Shown: one piece after another, positions 3,757-11,970 of the stretch
Position numbering within the stretch: position 1 is the stretch's first letter
Layout: each line of letters opens with the position of its first letter
Source of the DNA: a virus
IMG/VR virus record: IMGVR_UViG_3300020182_000076
Location: 1-39,815 of that record
Strand: one strand, 5' to 3'
Length of the DNA stretch: 39,815 nucleotides
Translations under genes and position numbers: made by a program
The notes under the pieces: generated by a model
Databases searched by the model: none
The model's input: the letters and a program-made list of their open reading frames with translations, nothing else
What the model was told of the DNA's origin: nothing

Positions 3757-5466
3757 ATGAACACAACGGAGATCAATGGATTTTTGATTGATAAATTCAA
3801 TCAACATGGTCTACCAGAAGGGAAAACGCAGGGGATTTGTCCCCTGTGCTCTTTAGATAGACAACCTAAAAATCAGAAAGCAAACTGTGCTTCTTATGAT
3901 TGGGAACGTGGTCTTGGTACTTGTCACAATTGCAACAAAACATTTCAACTACATTCATACCAACGTAAAGGTTCATCAGATAAAATATACGTTAGGCCAA
4001 CTACGCCTGACTTTATTGAAGAGGTGAGTACTAACGTAGAAAAGTGGTTTAATGGTCGAGGTATATCTAAAAACACACTAAAGGAACTTAAGGTTACTGA
4101 AGGTGCTGAATTTATGCCACAGACTGGTCAAATGGAAAATGCAATACACTTTAATTATTTCATAGGAGATCAATTAATAAACGTCAAATATAGAGATGGC
4201 CGCAAAAACTTTAAATTATATAAAGGAGCGGAAAAAGTATTTTACAACATAAATAGCGTTGTAGGATATGAATACTGTGTTATAGTTGAAGGTGAAATGG
4301 ACGTACTAAGCTTGCACGAAGCGGGAATTGAAAATGTAGTATCTGTACCTAATGGCGCAACTTTAAATAACAATAACCTTGACTATCTAGATAATTGTAT
4401 AGATTATTTTACTGATAAAGATAAAATAATAATTGCAGTTGATGATGATGATGCTGGACAAGCTCTACAACAAGAGTTAGTTAGAAGATTAGGTGCTGAG
4501 ATATGTTATTTAGCTACATTTGAAGATTGTAAAGACGCAAATGAATATTTATTAAAATATGGAAAAGAAGAATTGGCAAAGCGTATTGCCAAAGCAAAAC
4601 CAGTCCCTCTTGAAAACGTTACAACGTTCAGGGACATTGAAGCGGAAATTACAGATTTTGTTGAAAATGGTTTTAAACCCGGTTTCCAAGTTGGATTACC
4701 TAATTTCGATAGCATTTTCAGCACTTACACTGGTCAGTTTATTACTGTTACTGGTATTCCTTCTAGTGGGAAGTCCGATTTTGTTGATCAAATGGTTATT
4801 GGATATAATATAAATTATCAATGGAAAACAGCTTTTGCTTCTCCTGAAAATGCACCAACATATTTGCATGCTCATAAATTAATGAGAAAAGTGTGGCAAG
4901 ACATGCCATCTAAAAAGGATATTGGTACAGATAAATGGAATCAAGTAGCAGAACATATTAATGATAATTTTTTCTTTATTGATATGGATAAATACAGTTT
5001 AGAGGCTGTATTACGTAAAGGTGCTGAGTTGGTAAAGCGCAAAGGAATTAAATGTTTAGTTATAGACCCTTTTAATAAAGTAAGATCTAATGATGCTTCT
5101 GGTGATGTTAATGTATATACTCTTGATTACTTATCTAAAATAGAGATATTCGCAAAAAAATATGATGTTTTAGTTATTGTGGTTGCACACCCTACTAAAA
5201 TGTATAAAGATGCTAATGGGCGGATTGAAGAGCCTACAATGTATAATATTAAAGGTGGAGGTGAATGGTATGATGCCAGCTACCATGGCATATTAGTTCA
5301 CAGAGACTATGAGCAAAGAACTGTTAAAGCTAAAATATTGAAAGTCAAATTTCAAAACCTTGGCGAAAATGGTGCTGAAGCTCATTTTAAATGGGAACCA
5401 AAATCAGGTTGCTTTATACCGCATGAGCCTTTAGATTTAACTGAGGAAAAAATGCCTTGGGAATAA
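3757..5466 (+). CDS. Bifunctional primase-helicase (T7 gp4/Twinkle type)
   Basis: The 569-residue protein carries all parts of a phage replicative primase-helicase. The N-terminal zinc-binding module has CPLC at residues 28-31 and CHNC at 56-59. A Toprim domain follows, with VIVEGEMDVL (Glu178) and IIAVDDDDAG (around 226-235). The RecA-type helicase domain has Walker A GIPSSGKS at 333-340, Walker B LVIDP with Asp437, and IVVAHPTK with His478. It is close to the usual length of T7 gp4 (566 residues). It would unwind the fork and prime lagging-strand synthesis with a DNA polymerase that is not in this window. The start ATG is preceded by TTAAATTAAAT, an A/T leader like those before several right-arm genes. 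The next gene begins immediately after its stop. Confidence 0.92.
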   Translation: MNTTEINGFLIDKFNQHGLPEGKTQGICPLCSLDRQPKNQKANCASYDWERGLGTCHNCNKTFQLHSYQRKGSSDKIYVRPTTPDFIEEVSTNVEKWFNGRGISKNTLKELKVTEGAEFMPQTGQMENAIHFNYFIGDQLINVKYRDGRKNFKLYKGAEKVFYNINSVVGYEYCVIVEGEMDVLSLHEAGIENVVSVPNGATLNNNNLDYLDNCIDYFTDKDKIIIAVDDDDAGQALQQELVRRLGAEICYLATFEDCKDANEYLLKYGKEELAKRIAKAKPVPLENVTTFRDIEAEITDFVENGFKPGFQVGLPNFDSIFSTYTGQFITVTGIPSSGKSDFVDQMVIGYNINYQWKTAFASPENAPTYLHAHKLMRKVWQDMPSKKDIGTDKWNQVAEHINDNFFFIDMDKYSLEAVLRKGAELVKRKGIKCLVIDPFNKVRSNDASGDVNVYTLDYLSKIEIFAKKYDVLVIVVAHPTKMYKDANGRIEEPTMYNIKGGGEWYDASYHGILVHRDYEQRTVKAKILKVKFQNLGENGAEAHFKWEPKSGCFIPHEPLDLTEEKMPWE

Positions 5467-5724
5467 ATGGCTAAAAGAAAAGAAACAATTTGGATGCCAG
5501 AATATATGACTTCTAAGAATGAAAATGAATGGTATGCTTGGGGAGTTAACAATAACATTAGAATTTCACCTAAGCCAGCAACTCAGGGCCCAAACCCTAA
5601 AGAATGGTATTTAGAGGTTTTTAATAATGGCAGATGGTATAAGTCTCCTAATGTTTATGGACCAAAAGAAATATGGTATGAATTTTATTTAATGTATAAA
5701 TTTTATTATGATAAATATAGATGA
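5467..5724 (+). CDS. Hypothetical aromatic-rich protein, 85 aa
   Basis: An 85-residue protein starts at the base after the primase-helicase stop codon and overlaps the following gene by 17 bases, so it is translated in the same operon. It is unusually rich in Trp and Tyr (ENEWYAWGVNN, PKEWYLEVFNNGRWYK, IWYEFYLMYKFYYDKYR), with no signal peptide or membrane segment. I recognise no family. The compact aromatic pattern suggests a small beta-rich domain with a C-terminal helix. Its location between replication and nucleotide-metabolism genes suggests an accessory role there, but this is only context. Confidence 0.7.
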   Translation: MAKRKETIWMPEYMTSKNENEWYAWGVNNNIRISPKPATQGPNPKEWYLEVFNNGRWYKSPNVYGPKEIWYEFYLMYKFYYDKYR

Positions 5725-6535
5725 AGAATATAGGGGATTACTCTCTGGAGTATTTCACGCAGGCAAAGATAAAGAAGACCGCACGGGCACTGGCACAAGA
5801 TCAGTATTTGGTAGAACTATAAGACATGATATGCGTGCAGGTTTTCCATTATTAACAACTAAAAAAATATATTTTAAAAATGCAGTTACGGAATTATTAT
5901 GGATCTTACAAGGTCGCACAGATATGCAATATTTGCATAATCACAATCTCACTTATTGGGATGCAGACTATACCAGAAGCGGTAGAACTGACGGAACACT
6001 TGGTAAAGTTTACGGTTATCAGTGGAGAAATAGTAATGGCGTTGATCAGCTTTATAGTTTACTTCAAGAAATCACATCTAACCCGTCTTCAAGAAGACTT
6101 ATGGTTAATTCGTGGAACCCTGGTGACCTCAATGATATGGCACTCCCTCCTTGTCATTACAGCTTTCAAGTTTATATAAATGATGGTAAACTAGATTTAA
6201 TGTGGCAACAAAGATCAGTAGACATATTTTTAGGCTTACCTTATGATATAGCTATGTATGGATTATTATTATTGATGTTAGCTAAGGGATTTGACTACGA
6301 GCCCGGAACTTTAATTGGTCAATTAGGTGATTGTCATTTATATAATAATCATTTAGATCAAGCGAGCTTGCAATTAGCAAGAGAACCTAAAAAACTCCCA
6401 ACAGTAGATGTTGACTTTGGCTTAAAATTAGTTAAAGGTGCAGGAGATTTTGTTTTTATACCAACACATAATATGATTAAATTAAATAACTATGAATCAC
6501 ACAAAGCAATCAAAGCCCCACTCTCAGTCGGATGA
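5708..6535 (+). CDS. thyA: Thymidylate synthase family enzyme; candidate dCMP (hydroxy)methylase
   Basis: The 275-residue protein is a full-length ThyA-family enzyme. It has the DRTGTGT loop, the phosphate-binding SSRR pair at 127-130, the catalytic cysteine in ALPPCHYSFQVY (Cys149), QQRSVDIFLGLP, GDCHLYNNH and a normal IKAP C-terminus. In thymidylate synthases the residue after LP[FY] is the Asn (177 in E. coli) that reads the uracil ring. Here it is Asp180 (GLPYDIAMYG, codon GAT at 6245-6247). Known work on the family links Asp at this site to dCMP use: the Asn-to-Asp mutant of L. casei TS methylates dCMP, and T4 gp42 dCMP hydroxymethylase has Asp there. The enzyme may therefore make 5-methyl- or 5-hydroxymethyl-dCMP rather than dTMP. 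Sequence alone does not decide which. MazG-like genes downstream fit such a pathway. Family call firm, substrate inferred. Confidence 0.88.
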   Translation: MINIDEEYRGLLSGVFHAGKDKEDRTGTGTRSVFGRTIRHDMRAGFPLLTTKKIYFKNAVTELLWILQGRTDMQYLHNHNLTYWDADYTRSGRTDGTLGKVYGYQWRNSNGVDQLYSLLQEITSNPSSRRLMVNSWNPGDLNDMALPPCHYSFQVYINDGKLDLMWQQRSVDIFLGLPYDIAMYGLLLLMLAKGFDYEPGTLIGQLGDCHLYNNHLDQASLQLAREPKKLPTVDVDFGLKLVKGAGDFVFIPTHNMIKLNNYESHKAIKAPLSVG

Positions 6536-6538
6536 CAT

Positions 6539-6556
6539 TTGGTTTAAAAAAACCAA
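6539..6556 (+). other. Small A/T hairpin after the thyA stop
   Basis: TTGGTTT (6539-6545) and AAACCAA (6550-6556) form a 7-base-pair stem with an AAAA loop, starting 3 bases after the thyA stop codon. It lies in the roughly 85-base space before the CAP-domain gene. No T-run follows, so it is not a convincing terminator. It could be an mRNA-stability element or chance in A/T-rich DNA. Confidence 0.25.
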
Positions 6557-6620
6557 TTATCCAGGAGAATGGCTAAGTAAAAAAAGTAAAGATATAATTA
6601 ACCAAATAAACCAAAAAAAC

Positions 6621-7043
6621 ATGAAAAATTTATTATTTACATTATTATTATTATTTCCTTTAATGTCCTTTGGGCAATTAGATCATAAAAGAGCCTTAAC
6701 ATTTCAAAACGATATTAGGTCTTTTCATGATTTAAATAAATTAAAATACGATAATTCATTAGCAGAATCCGCTAAAGTATGGGCAATATATTTAGCTGAA
6801 ACAAATAAATTTGAATTTAGCGATGATGATAAAGGAGAATTAATTTATTATTATAAAAAAAGAGAAAATATAAAAATTGAAGATTACTTATTAGATGCAT
6901 CTATAGGTTGGGCAATAAGATATAATGAGGAAGAAACATTCAAACAAATAATTTGTGAAGATTGTGAGTACATTGGATTTGGTATTGCAGAGAATATTGA
7001 CTATATTTACGTAGTTGCTAGATACAATAAACTTTATAATTAA
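6621..7043 (+). CDS. Secreted CAP/SCP-domain-like protein
   Basis: I place the start at ATG 6621, giving 140 residues, because this creates a classic signal peptide MKNLLFTLLLLFPLMSFGQ of flavobacterial style. The frame is open upstream to an ATG at 6492 inside thyA, but that start would bury the signal. The mature part resembles the CAP (SCP/PR-1) fold: FQNDIRSFHDLNKLKYDNSL and AESAKVWAIYLAETN at the N-terminal side, and ECIGFGIA-type strands (CEYIGFGIAENIDYIYVVAR) at the end. The usual two His and two Glu of the CAP cavity are not obviously all present. It should be exported by the host Sec system to the periplasm or outside. Why a phage would export a CAP protein in an early operon is unknown; envelope modification or superinfection exclusion are possibilities. 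Confidence 0.62.
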   Translation: MKNLLFTLLLLFPLMSFGQLDHKRALTFQNDIRSFHDLNKLKYDNSLAESAKVWAIYLAETNKFEFSDDDKGELIYYYKKRENIKIEDYLLDASIGWAIRYNEEETFKQIICEDCEYIGFGIAENIDYIYVVARYNKLYN

Positions 7044-7044
7044 T

Positions 7045-7797
7045 ATGTATTATATTTATCACATATTCGGTAAAAAAATAGGAGTCGCACGTAATTTAAA
7101 AAGTAGAGTTACGCTTGCGCAGGGTTATAAGCCTAATGAATATGAAGTTCTTGATTCTTCTGATGATATAGATTATATATCTCACAAGGAAATAGAACTT
7201 CAAAAGTCTTATGGCTATAGAGTAGATAGAAAATTATATAAAAATTTATTTAAGAAAATGAAAATTAATGCTACAGAACAAACGTCAACTTTTCCATACT
7301 CTATCGTAGAGTTAAAAGCTAATTTAGATAGTGATATTGGATTTAAATGGGAAACATCATTAGGTGAATTTGAATTAACAAAAAAATCTGTTAATTGGAT
7401 AAAAGCTAATGCTAAAAAATCAATGTATAATGATAACCGTACGTACATTTATAATAAAGCTTTTTATGAAGCTTTTTTGGCAGAACCACTATATGACAAA
7501 GAAAACATATTTGGACTCATTAGAGGGTGGGCACAAGAACGTGGTTTATATGATAAGGGAGATTTTAAAACTCAATATATAAAACTTATGGAAGAGTCAG
7601 GTGAATTAGCTCAAGCTATATTAAAAAATGACGAACCAGAAGTTATTGATGCTATAGGAGATATGGTCGTTGTATTAACTAATTTAGCTAAGTTACGAGG
7701 ACACAATATTGAAGATTGTATTCAGTCTGCTTATGACGAAATATCTAATCGTAAAGGCAAGATGGTTAATGGTACATTTGTAAAAAATACGCTATGA
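7045..7797 (+). CDS. GIY-YIG-like / MazG nucleotide pyrophosphohydrolase fusion protein
   Basis: Starting at ATG 7045 (the frame extends 10 codons further up, into the previous gene), the 250-residue product has two recognisable ends. Residues 1-70 (YYIYHIFGKKIGVARNLKSR, then HKEIELQKSYGYRVD) resemble a compact GIY-YIG nuclease fold, with the GIY and YIG motifs changed to YYIYHI and KKIG. Residues of about 155-250 are a MazG-type all-alpha NTP pyrophosphohydrolase: KLMEESGELAQAI (EExxE) and DAIGDMVVVLTNLA, with the common phage ending RKGKMVNGTFVKN. MazG enzymes hydrolyse (d)NTPs to (d)NMPs. Here that could degrade signalling nucleotides or supply dCMP to the ThyA-like enzyme. The roughly 80-residue middle is unassigned. 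The stop overlaps the next ATG (ATGA). MazG call firm, GIY-YIG call tentative. Confidence 0.8.
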   Translation: MYYIYHIFGKKIGVARNLKSRVTLAQGYKPNEYEVLDSSDDIDYISHKEIELQKSYGYRVDRKLYKNLFKKMKINATEQTSTFPYSIVELKANLDSDIGFKWETSLGEFELTKKSVNWIKANAKKSMYNDNRTYIYNKAFYEAFLAEPLYDKENIFGLIRGWAQERGLYDKGDFKTQYIKLMEESGELAQAILKNDEPEVIDAIGDMVVVLTNLAKLRGHNIEDCIQSAYDEISNRKGKMVNGTFVKNTL

Positions 7798-8024
7798 GAG
7801 ATAAAGTAATACAAGATGTAGTTGAAAAGTTTCAACAACGCTCAGATGTTGGTTATAAAAAATATGGTGTTACTCTTCATGATGATGAACCTAATTTGCA
7901 TAAATGGCTTAATCATTTGCAAGAAGAATTAATGGATGCAGTTAATTATATTCAGAAGCTCAAGATGGAATCTACTACAGCTTTAGAAGAAAAGCTATTA
8001 AAAGACTTTGAAGAAGATGCTTAA
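7794..8024 (+). CDS. Small MazG-like (all-alpha NTP pyrophosphohydrolase) protein
   Basis: The 76-residue protein reads RSDVGYKKYGVTLHDDE, then LHKWLNHLQEELMDAVNYIQ. The HLQEELMDAVNYI helix has the EExxD-type metal-binding pattern of MazG-like/dimeric dUTPase-like all-alpha NTP pyrophosphatases. The upstream GYKKYG motif recurs in short phage members of this group. It is much shorter than a full MazG and probably functions as a dimer or higher oligomer. It overlaps the MazG fusion gene by an ATGA junction and the endonuclease gene by 8 bases. Two neighbouring pyrophosphohydrolase-like genes next to a ThyA variant and ribonucleotide reductase point to dNTP pool control. Substrate unknown. Confidence 0.65.
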   Translation: MRDKVIQDVVEKFQQRSDVGYKKYGVTLHDDEPNLHKWLNHLQEELMDAVNYIQKLKMESTTALEEKLLKDFEEDA

Positions 8025-8475
8025 TAGAAATAGAAAAGGAAGAAGAAAAAGGGGTCCTGTTAGAGCTAAAAAAGTTAGCTTTGACGGGATTGACTTTGCT
8101 TCAGGCTTAGAAAAGTATATGTATACTGCTTTAAAAAAAGCAAAGATTAAAAATAAATATGAAGGTGAAACGTTTGTTTTAATTAATGGATTTCATTTTG
8201 AAAATGAATCTTATGAAAGACAAGCTAATGGCAAAGGGGAATTAATTAATAGAGGTAGTAAAAGAATATTACCTATTAAGTATACACCTGATTTTATTGG
8301 TGAAGATTTTATAATAGAAACAAAAGGTAGAGCTAATGAATCTTTCCCAATTAGGTGGAAACTGTTTAAAAAATTAGTTACTGAGCAATTTCCCCAGTAT
8401 ACTTTATATAAACCACAAAATCAAAAAGAATGCGACAGAGTAGTAGAAATAATCCTGAGCAAGAAAAAAAAGTAG
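8017..8475 (+). CDS. PD-(D/E)XK endonuclease (T7 endonuclease I-like)
   Basis: I choose ATG 8017 (152 residues); the frame opens at a TTG three codons earlier. After a very basic N-terminus (NRNRKGRRKRG) comes FDGIDFASGLEKYMYTALKK. The downstream metal-site residues are in YTPDFI and FIIETKGRANE (E-x-K), followed by FPIRWKLFKKL. This E...D...ExK arrangement matches phage endonuclease I-type and related Holliday-junction or packaging-associated nucleases. Likely jobs are resolving branched replication or recombination intermediates, or degrading host DNA. A second possibility is a Vsr/MutH-like repair nuclease. The insertion between the first and second motif (NESYERQANGKGEL) is unusual. It overlaps genes on both sides. 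Confidence 0.77.
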   Translation: MLNRNRKGRRKRGPVRAKKVSFDGIDFASGLEKYMYTALKKAKIKNKYEGETFVLINGFHFENESYERQANGKGELINRGSKRILPIKYTPDFIGEDFIIETKGRANESFPIRWKLFKKLVTEQFPQYTLYKPQNQKECDRVVEIILSKKKK

Positions 8476-8730: not shown

Positions 8731-8867
8731 CAGGCTGGGAAATTAGTGTTGGATTATATCCTGGTGTTTTATTAGGAATTAGAAGCTATGTAGAAAACGA
8801 ATCAACAGACCATGTTTTATATATACCTTTTGTAGAATTATGTTTAACTATATATTATAAAAATTAA
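8727..8867 (+). CDS. Small hypothetical protein, 46 aa
   Basis: From ATG 8727 (ATGA overlap with the previous gene) to TAA 8865-8867, this frame encodes 46 residues: MTGWEISVGLYPGVLLGIRS, then an acidic stretch, then HVLYIPFVELCLTIYYKN. It shares one base with the nrdB start (TAATG). The two hydrophobic stretches could pack as beta strands or as a short membrane hairpin. The WE.....YPG..LG.R...HVLY.PF pattern looks familiar from phages of Bacteroidota, but its function is unknown. The exact double overlap with both neighbours makes chance unlikely. Confidence 0.66.
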   Translation: MTGWEISVGLYPGVLLGIRSYVENESTDHVLYIPFVELCLTIYYKN

Positions 8868-9835
8868 TGGGATTATTTAATGAAAGAATTGCGTACAAAC
8901 CATTTGAGTACCCAGAGTACTATACTGAGGGATGGCTTAAACAAGCTCAGGCATTCTGGTTGCATACCGAAATACCAATGTCAGGTGATGTTAAGGATTG
9001 GAATGAGAAATTAACACCTGAAGAAAAAAGCTTAGTAGGTAATATACTACTAGGATTTGCACAAACAGAATGTGCTGTTAGTGATTATTGGACACAAAAA
9101 GTAGTTGGTTGGTTTCCAAAACACGAAATACAACAAATGGCTATGATGTTTGGTTCTCAAGAAACAATTCACGCTGTAGCTTATAGCTATTTAAATGAAA
9201 CACTTGGCTTAGAAGATTTTGAAGCCTTTCTTCAAGATGAAGCAACAATGGAACGATTTGATAATTTAGTTAGTTATGATGGAAATAATAAAACCAGAAT
9301 CGCAAGAAGCCTTGCAATCTTTAGTGCTTTTGCAGAAGGAGTTAGCCTCTACTCTGCTTTTGCTGTTCTTTATAGTTTTCAATTACGTAATCTCCTTAAA
9401 GGGATTGGGCAACAAATGAAATGGAGTGTAAGGGATGAATCATTACATTCTAAAATGGGCTGTAGACTCTTTAGACATATGTGCGAAGAAGATAAAAGTT
9501 TATTAGAAGATTGTAGAAAAGATATTATTGATGCGGCGACAGCAATGCTTAAGGCAGAAGAAAAATATATTGACAGAATGTTTGAAGCCGGAGACGTTGA
9601 AGGAATTAAAGCCTACGATCTTAAGCAATTTATTAGAAAAAGACTTAACGAAAAATTACAAGAGCTTGGTTACTTCGACCTCGGGCAGCACTTTGAATTT
9701 AACAAAAAAGCATCAAGTAATCTCGATTGGTTTTACCATCTTACTGGTGGTCATACCCATACTGATTTTTTTGCTGTACGTCCAACTGATTATTCAAAAG
9801 CAAATGAAGGAGAAGATTTTGAAGATATTTGGTAG
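8867..9835 (+). CDS. nrdB: Ribonucleotide reductase class I small subunit (R2)
   Basis: The 322-residue protein is a class I R2 subunit, which generates the radical used by NrdA to reduce ribonucleotides. The di-metal ligands can be traced as Glu68 (FAQTECAV), Glu99 and His102 (SQETIHAVAY), Glu157 (FAEGVSLY), and Glu191 and His194 (RDESLHSK). The radical tyrosine is Tyr106, four residues after His102. The first ligand is Glu, whereas most class Ia/Ib enzymes have Asp. The C-terminal tail is acidic (EGEDFEDIW), as expected for docking to the large subunit. nrdA follows after two small genes. Together they raise deoxynucleotide supply for phage replication. Confidence 0.95.
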   Translation: MGLFNERIAYKPFEYPEYYTEGWLKQAQAFWLHTEIPMSGDVKDWNEKLTPEEKSLVGNILLGFAQTECAVSDYWTQKVVGWFPKHEIQQMAMMFGSQETIHAVAYSYLNETLGLEDFEAFLQDEATMERFDNLVSYDGNNKTRIARSLAIFSAFAEGVSLYSAFAVLYSFQLRNLLKGIGQQMKWSVRDESLHSKMGCRLFRHMCEEDKSLLEDCRKDIIDAATAMLKAEEKYIDRMFEAGDVEGIKAYDLKQFIRKRLNEKLQELGYFDLGQHFEFNKKASSNLDWFYHLTGGHTHTDFFAVRPTDYSKANEGEDFEDIW

Positions 9836-10010: not shown

Positions 10011-10238
10011 ATGAAAGAACAAAAATTAGTAGAATTAGTTAATAAGGTAAATGGTTTAGAAAATATTGTTAAACAATTAATAACTGAATTATATAACTTA
10101 AAAGATTTAAGTGTAGGCACACTAGAGGCGGTTAAATTAATGCCTGGTTATGACGATGCAATAATTGAATTAACAAAACAATTAGAAGAAGCAAATAAAA
10201 AACAACAAGAAAAAAAATTAGATTTAAATGTGGAATAA
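10011..10238 (+). CDS. Coiled-coil hypothetical protein, 75 aa
   Basis: This 75-residue product is almost entirely helical in appearance. A first heptad-like segment (LVELVNKVNGLENIVKQLIT) and a last one (AIIELTKQLEEANKKQQEKK) are separated by a loop containing MPGYDD. No signal peptide, zinc site or enzyme motif is seen. An upstream ATG at 10006 is closed after two codons, so 10011 is the start. It overlaps the nrdA start by 11 bases, which suggests translational coupling. It may be a small oligomeric adaptor. Function unknown. Confidence 0.68.
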   Translation: MKEQKLVELVNKVNGLENIVKQLITELYNLKDLSVGTLEAVKLMPGYDDAIIELTKQLEEANKKQQEKKLDLNVE

Positions 10239-11970
10239 TGAATGGGTAAAAGGTGAGGATTATCCAGTGTGGGGTGATACTGAAGTTTATAAAAAAACAA
10301 TTACAGGTGGTTATTTATTTCAAGGAGAATCACCTAAAGATGCTTATATGCGCGTTTCAACCGCGGTAGCTAAGCGTTTATACAAGCCAGAATTAGCTGA
10401 AAAGTTTTTTGATTACATATGGCGGGGTTGGCTGTGTTTAGCCTCACCAGTGTTGTCTAATACAGGTACAGATCGAGGTTTACCTATTAGTTGTTTTGGG
10501 ATTGATGTTGCTGATAGTATAAATGATATTGGACAAAAGAATTTAGAAATGATGCTCTTAGCCAAGCATGGAGGCGGTGTTGGCATAGGGATTAATATGA
10601 TAAGACCCGCTGGTGCTAAAATTACAGGTAATGGAACAAGTGATGGAGTGGTCCCGTTTTGCAAGATATACGATTCAACAATACTTGCCACTAATCAAGG
10701 ATCTGTCCGCAGAGGAGCTGCGTCAGTTAACATCAATATTGATCACCCCGACTTTGAAGAATGGGTGGAGATCAGAGAACCTAAAGGAGATGTCAATAGG
10801 CAGTCCCTCAATCTACACCAGTGCGCTGTGGTCGGTGACAAGTTTATGCGAAGACTTGAACAAGGAGATACAGAAGCTAGACGCAAGTGGGGGAAACTAT
10901 TACAAAAGCGTAAAGCAACTGGAGAGCCTTATATCCTCTTTAAGGGAAATACAAACAAAAATAACCCAAAAGCATACAAATCAAATGGGCTCAAAGTTCA
11001 TATGACAAACATATGTAGTGAAATTGCATTACATACAGACGAATCACACTCTTTTGTGTGTTGCTTATCTTCTCTTAACTTAGATAAATACGACGAATGG
11101 AAGAACACGAATTTGATATACGACGCGACATGGTTCCTAGACGGTGTGCTCGAAGAATTTATCCAGAAGGCAAAGAATATGAAGGGATTCGAGAACTCTG
11201 TACGCAGTGCGGAAAAAGGTCGGGCACTTGGGTTGGGTGTCCTTGGGTGGCACAGTCTGTTACAAAAGAACGGAATTGCTTTCGAAGGTTTATTAGCACA
11301 ATTCAAAACGCGAGAAATTTTTTCAAAATTAAAAATTGAAACTGAAAGAGCATCAAGAGATTTAGCTGAAACTTATGGTGAACCTTTATGGTGTGTAGGT
11401 ACTGGAATGCGTAATACACATTTAAGAGCTATTGCGCCTACCGTATCTAACAGTAAACTTTCAGGTAATGTTTCACCTGGTATTGAGCCTTGGGCTGCAA
11501 ACGTATTTACAGAGCAATCTGCTAAAGGCACGTTTATTAGAAAAAATAAAGAACTTAAAAAAGTATTAAGAAAAATTGGAATTGATAGTAAAGAAACTTG
11601 GGATAAGATTTTGGAAGATGGTGGATCCATTCAAGACATTAAAGAGCTCGATGGATGGAATTATGATCACCAAGGAAGACTTACCGAAGAAGATGGTGAG
11701 TCTGTAAAAAATGTATTTAAAACATTTAAAGAGATTAATCAATTAGAATTAGTTAATCAAGCTGGTATACGTCAAGATTATATAGATCAATCAGTAAGTT
11801 TAAATTTAGCGTTTCCTTCTGTAGCGGATCCTAAATGGCTTAATAAAGTGCATTTAGAGGCATGGAAACGTGGTATTAAGACTTTGTATTATATGAGAAC
11901 TGAATCTGTATTAAGAGGTGATATTGCTGCAAAAGCAATGGATCCAGATTGTATATCCTGTGATGGATAA
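10228..11970 (+). CDS. nrdA: Ribonucleotide reductase class I large subunit (R1)
   Basis: The 580-residue protein has the complete R1 active site: Cys89 (GLPISCFGID), the NICSE finger loop with Asn261, Cys263 and Glu265, the partner Cys at 278/279 (SFVCCLSSLNL), Tyr554-Tyr555 of the radical path (LYYMRTES) and a C-terminal CISC pair (575-578) for re-reduction. It is shorter than typical bacterial NrdA (about 750). It starts directly with the catalytic barrel region and lacks an N-terminal ATP-cone, so dATP feedback inhibition is probably absent, as in several phage enzymes. No intron or intein interrupts it. A long central part (about 10,560-11,280) is visibly richer in G+C than the rest of the gene. 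It is the last gene of the + strand operon. Confidence 0.95.
   Translation: MWNNEWVKGEDYPVWGDTEVYKKTITGGYLFQGESPKDAYMRVSTAVAKRLYKPELAEKFFDYIWRGWLCLASPVLSNTGTDRGLPISCFGIDVADSINDIGQKNLEMMLLAKHGGGVGIGINMIRPAGAKITGNGTSDGVVPFCKIYDSTILATNQGSVRRGAASVNINIDHPDFEEWVEIREPKGDVNRQSLNLHQCAVVGDKFMRRLEQGDTEARRKWGKLLQKRKATGEPYILFKGNTNKNNPKAYKSNGLKVHMTNICSEIALHTDESHSFVCCLSSLNLDKYDEWKNTNLIYDATWFLDGVLEEFIQKAKNMKGFENSVRSAEKGRALGLGVLGWHSLLQKNGIAFEGLLAQFKTREIFSKLKIETERASRDLAETYGEPLWCVGTGMRNTHLRAIAPTVSNSKLSGNVSPGIEPWAANVFTEQSAKGTFIRKNKELKKVLRKIGIDSKETWDKILEDGGSIQDIKELDGWNYDHQGRLTEEDGESVKNVFKTFKEINQLELVNQAGIRQDYIDQSVSLNLAFPSVADPKWLNKVHLEAWKRGIKTLYYMRTESVLRGDIAAKAMDPDCISCDG

Follow-up and report, generated by a model that had tools for sequence, protein, structure and literature searches.

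A thymidylate synthase homologue with aspartate at the base-recognition position, a predicted dCMP C5-methylase, in an exchange slot of uncultured phages

Introduction

What does a phage thymidylate synthase (TS) homologue make if aspartate takes the place of the asparagine by which TS selects uracil? The window examined here, that is, the whole stretch of DNA that was analysed, is a linear IMG/VR record of 39,815 bases, and it raises this question with a gene at 5708-6535 on the plus strand. An earlier note had proposed that the 275-residue product makes 5-methyl- or 5-hydroxymethyl-dCMP and that the phage genome may contain a modified cytosine. Our characterization arrives at a predicted dCMP C5-methylase, possibly a hydroxymethylase, which we call type A. 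The terminase of the phage is 65% identical to that of the environmental genome MW202828, 45.7% to those of Elemovirus phages of Flavobacterium and about 38-40% to those of Cellulophaga and Maribacter phages, and we regard the source as an uncultured relative of flavobacterial podoviruses.

Results

An intact TS active site with aspartate at the base-recognition position

Pfam, NCBIfam and PHROGs all label the query thymidylate synthase, through matches to PF00303 (299.6 bits), TIGR03284 (281 bits, cut-off 108) and phrog_160. It qualifies as a member of the TS family, defined as the PF00303 superfamily by the fold and the catalytic Cys, Arg, Asp and His/Tyr: the catalytic pair Cys149 and His150 (6152-6157, plus strand; C146 and H147 in E. 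coli TS) is accompanied by E62, W84, Y102, R169, S170, D172, H210 and Y212, and the C-terminus ends with the TS tail IKAPLSV(G). The predicted structure (pLDDT 90.8) has a plain TS fold, with M. tuberculosis ThyA as its closest match (Z 36.2, rmsd 1.3 A, 46% identity). This model confirms the fold only, and is silent on the base that is recognised.

A dUMP-specific TS proper would have Asn at E. coli position 177, which is also the residue in the aligned TS structures. The query does not meet this criterion, as it has Asp180 (codon GAT, 6245-6247, plus strand) in the motif GLPYDIAMYG, equivalent to Asn177 of E. coli TS and Asp179 of T4 gp42; it meets instead the criterion of a dCMP-type TS homologue. 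The earlier claims that Asp replaces the TS Asn while the catalytic elements are intact, that T4 gp42 has the equivalent Asp and that the gene would be auto-annotated as thymidylate synthase have all held, the first by reading frame, codon and alignment. The further claim that Asn selects uracil and Asp leads to dCMP is supported by published work (PMC8670742, PMC6400193).

The aspartate is fixed in a new clade

Asp is found at this position in all 80 closest IMG/VR relatives (63-92% identity). The clade boundary was drawn by scanning the coding patterns 'LP[YF]DIA..Y' and 'LP[YF]NIA..Y' separately in IMG/VR. A tree built from 159 representatives puts the query in an Asp-only clade, whose 47 representatives stand for 146 sequences. 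This clade (support 1.0) is nested within the Asn-type TS and lies well away from T4 gp42, and several other Asp-type groups arise separately. As all 146 members have Asp and none has Asn, though only 51 of 275 columns are invariant and Asn is a single base away, Asp180 is not a chance substitution.

Two further changes on the folate side mark the clade. Tyr83 (5954-5956, plus strand) occupies the position of E. coli Ile79, a PABA contact, and Tyr is present there in 145 of 146 clade members versus none of 114 Asn-type TS. In roughly three of every four members, the C-terminal tail is one or two residues longer than usual; 97 of the 99 Asn-type TS scored end exactly at the usual last residue. 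Leu143 and His147 (E. coli numbering) are retained. While the clade is new and uncharacterised, the enzyme class is already known. Four type A genes (L362, L363, L364 and L365) lie on contigs binned to Rickettsiales, Bacteroidetes and Flaviramulus MAGs, which are likely phage contigs placed in bacterial bins.

Type A meets the methylase but not the hydroxymethylase criteria

In T4 gp42, Asp179 decides between dCMP and dUMP, and hydroxymethylation requires Asp145, three residues before the catalytic Cys, together with Ser94-x-Tyr96; the D145N mutant yields no product (PMC6400193). TS differs from gp42 in having Leu at the Asp145 position and a C-terminal tail that gp42 lacks (PMC6400193). The alignment with TS and hydroxymethylases that the earlier note had proposed placed Asp180 on gp42 Asp179, but left the hydroxymethylase signature unmet. 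The query has Leu146 (6143-6145, plus strand) at the position of Asp145, as do all 145 clade members scored; Lys100-Val-Tyr102 in place of a Ser or Thr two before the Tyr, with Pro or Lys at the position of Lys100 in nearly the whole clade; and the closing tail IKAPLSVG, the absence of which is a hydroxymethylase criterion. With gp42 (PDB 1b5e, 6a9b) it thus shares the Asp at the Asn177 position, the catalytic Cys and the fold family, while His replaces Thr after the Cys, identity to type A is only about 23%, and the two lie in separate clades.

The criterion for a dCMP methylase, Asp at 177 with an intact hydride-transfer side, is met (Leu146, Asp172, Tyr212 and the tail). Bacterial ThyA proteins (M. 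tuberculosis, E. coli) are 44-46% identical to the query and have the same fold (Z 35-36), but carry Asn at the uracil-recognition position. The engineered L. casei N229D and E. coli N177D enzymes match the query in a TS-like site in which only the base-recognition Asn is changed to Asp, and an engineered Asn-to-Asp TS makes 5-methyl-dCMP (as cited in PMC8670742). By analogy, type A would be the natural counterpart of these enzymes, with its product inferred; it differs from them in being natural and clade-fixed, and in its Ile79Tyr change and tail extension. In a metagenome association study, the two strongest markers of modified-cytosine contigs were Asp at 177 and replacement of the residue at 147 (PMC8670742). 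The query meets the first and not the second, as it retains His.

A rival reading, which remains possible, is that the query is a dCMP hydroxymethylase in which water traps the exocyclic methylene intermediate to give 5-hydroxymethyl-dCMP, by an arrangement unlike that of T4 gp42. In its favor are the clade-specific folate-side changes, Tyr for Ile79 and the tail extension found in most members; in T4 gp42, Tyr56 overlays the TS Ile79 position (PMC6400193). Against it stand the missing signature (Leu146, Lys100) and the TS closing tail. Asp87 was considered as a substitute water activator for the gp42 Asp, and was rejected because Asp or Asn is found there in 90 of 114 Asn-type TS.

Three alternative genes share one slot

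In relatives whose terminases are 75-77% identical, the corresponding position is occupied by TS-family genes of quite another kind. Loci were gathered by their primase/helicase, blind to the downstream gene, and the gene preceding the MazG-like gene was then read. This yielded 155 complete slots, 102 of them distinct, each with exactly one gene of three types: type A (25 loci; motifs LPYD, LPPCH), type B (33; GIPYD, LPPCY) and the gp42-like type C (44; GFCND, DTPCT, RSNYG). Among the 102, none was empty and none held an Asn-type TS. Asp177 is present by alignment in all 24 intact type A genes, 33 of 33 type B and 44 of 44 type C genes; types B and C have Tyr and Thr, respectively, after the catalytic Cys, where the query has His150. 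All three types form monophyletic groups (support 1.0, 0.998 and 0.985), with mean identities of 36% between A and B and 24% between A and C, and the 21 long type B and C records tested have one PF00303 gene each. Separately, one terminase relative (L478, G035:6469-7014) has a weak match to PF00303 that is interrupted by internal stops.

Type C carries the complete published dCMP-hydroxymethylase signature, with Asp three before the Cys in 44 of 44, Ser at position 92, Thr147 and Asp177, and shares it with T4 gp42, with which it groups (support 0.949); it is a hydroxymethylase by signature, its activity being inferred. Its best PDB matches, ahead of any TS, are T4 gp42 and the CMP 5-hydroxymethylase MilA (PDB 5b6d, 5jnh), a TS-family enzyme acting on cytosine nucleotides. 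MilA differs in its ribonucleotide substrate and its role in antibiotic biosynthesis, and is not close to the query.

The types have been exchanged in place. On the primase tree we count 20 type changes (shuffled mean 46.6, minimum 39), and at least 17 or 14 if branches below 0.90 or 0.95 support are collapsed. In the closest cross-type pair, L517 (B) and L528 (A), identity at the DNA level is 92% along the primase and over the very start of the TS gene; similarity is undetectable over the rest of that gene, and returns at 81% identity from the MazG-like gene onward. Five more cross-type pairs show the same pattern, and in most of them similarity is lost where the primase ends or shortly afterwards. 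These comparisons show in-place replacement with homology stopping close to the gene edges, and as identical borders recur in so many metagenomes, chimeric assembly is an unlikely cause. We found no description of such an exchange slot in the open-access literature searched, and it is probably undescribed.

Through the slot, an argument from a single residue becomes a genetic argument, as three unrelated cytosine-type lineages repeatedly replace each other. Since it holds a full-signature hydroxymethylase in 44 of 102 sister loci and never an Asn-type TS, the slot gives the dCMP reading strong and independent support, and for this reason of interchange we consider dCMP the very likely substrate, an inference from sequence and synteny without an assay. 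The alternative that the query is still a thymidylate synthase, or a dual dUMP/dCMP enzyme, which mainly raises dTMP during infection, is unlikely. It can point to the retention of all TS catalytic residues including His147, to a model whose nearest structures are those of true TS (Z 36.2, rmsd 1.3 A), to the absence of any other TS-family gene from these phages, and to the location of the query beside genes for ribonucleotide reductase. However, the fold match is uninformative on the recognised base, Asp is kept in 146 of 146 clade members though a single base would restore Asn, and the slots are often occupied by a hydroxymethylase-type enzyme and in 0 of 102 cases by an Asn-type TS.

One type A homologue, L537, is split into two frames, by sequencing error or as a broken allele. 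It is all that speaks for the reading that Asp180 is neutral or a sign of decay in a gene being lost, which we consider very unlikely: clade members from different metagenomes keep an open frame and are conserved, with intact catalytic residues, and the slot has been filled repeatedly and independently.

Neighborhood and gene content

The conserved gene order runs from a sigma-like factor, ERF recombinase, exonuclease and primase/helicase through the TS homologue to a MazG-like protein, a small protein, DUF1064, NrdB and NrdA. On the plus strand of the window, the primase/helicase (3757-5466) forms the left border of the slot; a short conserved ORF (5467-5724) that precedes the TS homologue is present in four of the five relatives compared; and a protein with a MazG/PRA-PH-like nucleotide pyrophosphohydrolase domain (7015-7797) forms the right border. 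Beyond it lie a conserved 76-residue cassette member of unknown function (7794-8024), a DUF1064/Holliday-junction-resolvase-like protein (8008-8475), and the small and large ribonucleotide reductase subunits NrdB (8867-9835) and NrdA (10228-11970). Between the TS homologue and the MazG-like gene, 6492-7043 encodes a CAP/SCP-domain (PF00188) protein, a relative of which was found in two of five genomes compared (G007, G030). Elsewhere, a GroEL-like chaperonin (PF00118) is conserved in these phages (e.g. L090:9322-10872), and its 86-residue neighbor could be GroES.

The MazG-like protein might supply dCMP from dCTP, though this is inferred only. The adjacency is weak as specific support, because elemoF, which lacks a TS gene, carries an annotated phosphoribosyl-ATP pyrophosphohydrolase in a similar neighborhood. 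The MazG/PRA-PH match is confined to the C-terminal part of the protein, and the N-terminal part (YYIYHIFGKKIGVARNLKSRV) resembles, by eye only, a GIY-YIG nuclease domain.

A PF00303 gene is absent from six related records (elemoF, MW202828, phi13:2, phi38:1, Panino and Gundel_1), while 31 related IMG/VR records have one each and no ThyX was found in the same 31. In 17 long related records we found no DHFR, dCMP deaminase or family A DNA polymerase, and no dedicated dNMP kinase was seen in the phage parts tested. The missing DHFR lends some support to the hydroxymethylase alternative, as a hydroxymethylase would not need it.

Genome-level tests are of limited help

The observed/expected ratio of C-containing palindromic 6-mers is about 0.90 in slot-filled phages (n = 22) versus 0.78 in five TS-less relatives (p = 0.0007); for 6-mers made up of A and T only, the two groups do not differ (p = 0.19). 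A/T-only 4-mers also differ between the two groups, and RB14, a true hydroxymethylcytosine phage, gives a mixed result (0.78 for 4-mers, 0.93 for 6-mers). The test was post hoc, with few and phylogenetically dependent controls, and reduced avoidance of C-containing palindromes could at most be weak genome-level support for modified cytosine. Base composition was rejected as a sign of 5-methylcytosine decay, GC showing no difference between types (p = 0.19); CpG differs solely owing to type B. Gene families with a bias to one of the three types, compared across 21 genomes by presence/absence and sequence only, included no evident product-revealing accessory genes such as glycosyltransferases.

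Discussion

What can be discerned about the product? Of the earlier claim of 5-methyl- or 5-hydroxymethyl-dCMP, the dCMP part is supported, and which product is formed is undecided, with a lean towards methyl (Leu146, Lys100). No assay is at hand, but the balance tips towards 5-methyl-dCMP because the query has Leu146, not Asp, and keeps the TS tail. The interchange with type C, Tyr83 and the lack of DHFR weigh against this, the interchange counting for the hydroxymethylase rival; the exchange between the query type and a hydroxymethylase allele would fit just as well with 5-hydroxymethyl-dCMP being the product of all three types. As the query has the switch residue in a slot filled by three cytosine-type enzymes, the DNA of these phages probably contains a chemically modified cytosine, as the earlier note had suggested; this rests on sequence and synteny, with no measurement of phage DNA. 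That note would have been refuted by methylation of dUMP only, by proven thymidylate synthases among close relatives with the same Asp, or by unmodified phage cytosines, and we found no refuting result.

The explanation we prefer, with some reservation, is inferred: a dCMP-specific TS-family enzyme making 5-methyl-dCMP that is incorporated in phage DNA. Cys149 would attack C6 of dCMP, Asp180, in the role of Asp179 of T4 gp42, would recognise and protonate the cytosine, and the C5 carbon would come from methylene-tetrahydrofolate. With the hydride-transfer side kept (Leu146, Asp172, C-terminal tail), 5-methyl-dCMP would be the likeliest product. Host kinases may then phosphorylate it, host polymerase may incorporate it into phage DNA, and the methylated cytosine may blunt host restriction; the anti-restriction role, like substrate, product and incorporation, is inferred, and not shown as are the sequence features, clade, slot and swaps. 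Speaking against the methylase explanation are the retention of His150, the second published marker position, which is changed in B, C and the phage AXL1, and the fact that DHFR, dCMP deaminase and dNMP kinase were unseen in the phage parts tested.

The query gene would be one of three interchangeable alleles at a single slot in this lineage, a widespread, uncultured, flavobacterial and marine phage group. A bolder reading, which we are slightly more inclined to doubt than to accept, is that the A and B alleles make 5-methylcytosine and C makes 5-hydroxymethylcytosine at this fixed slot. If true, allele exchange would evade both ordinary restriction and restriction enzymes specific to one modified base, and alleles making different bases would amount to modular switching of DNA chemistry under host-defence selection. 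More generally, a natural TS homologue that is set apart from TS essentially by Asn-to-Asp alone is a good candidate for cytosine modification, while databases call it thymidylate synthase. Further Asp-type TS exist outside the three slot types (L165, L171, L150, L156, L218, L157, L182, L224, L216 and L114), some with His147 changed to Pro or Gln; they represent several independent Asn-to-Asp origins.

A side result concerns the phage XP12, whose DNA contains 5-methylcytosine. As stand-ins we used its relatives AXL1 and YB23, reached via the XP12 qPCR primers printed in PMC8670742. AXL1 gp63, the nearest readable sequence to the XP12-type dCMP methyltransferase, is annotated as thymidylate synthase (L367:46622-47563, NC_073034.1) and is, like the query, an Asp-type TS (Asp at 177, motif LPYDVMGH) adjoining a nucleotide pyrophosphohydrolase gene. 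It differs from the query in Asn at 143 and Pro at 147, in the dCMP deaminase and DHFR genes alongside, and in belonging to an unrelated phage lineage. We infer that gp63 is a candidate dCMP methylase, and it may possibly be the XP12-type enzyme. AXL1 DNA resists most restriction enzymes, as does that of XP12, by a mechanism unknown according to the authors (PMC9206674); perhaps this resistance is due to its own Asp-type 'thymidylate synthase' gp63.
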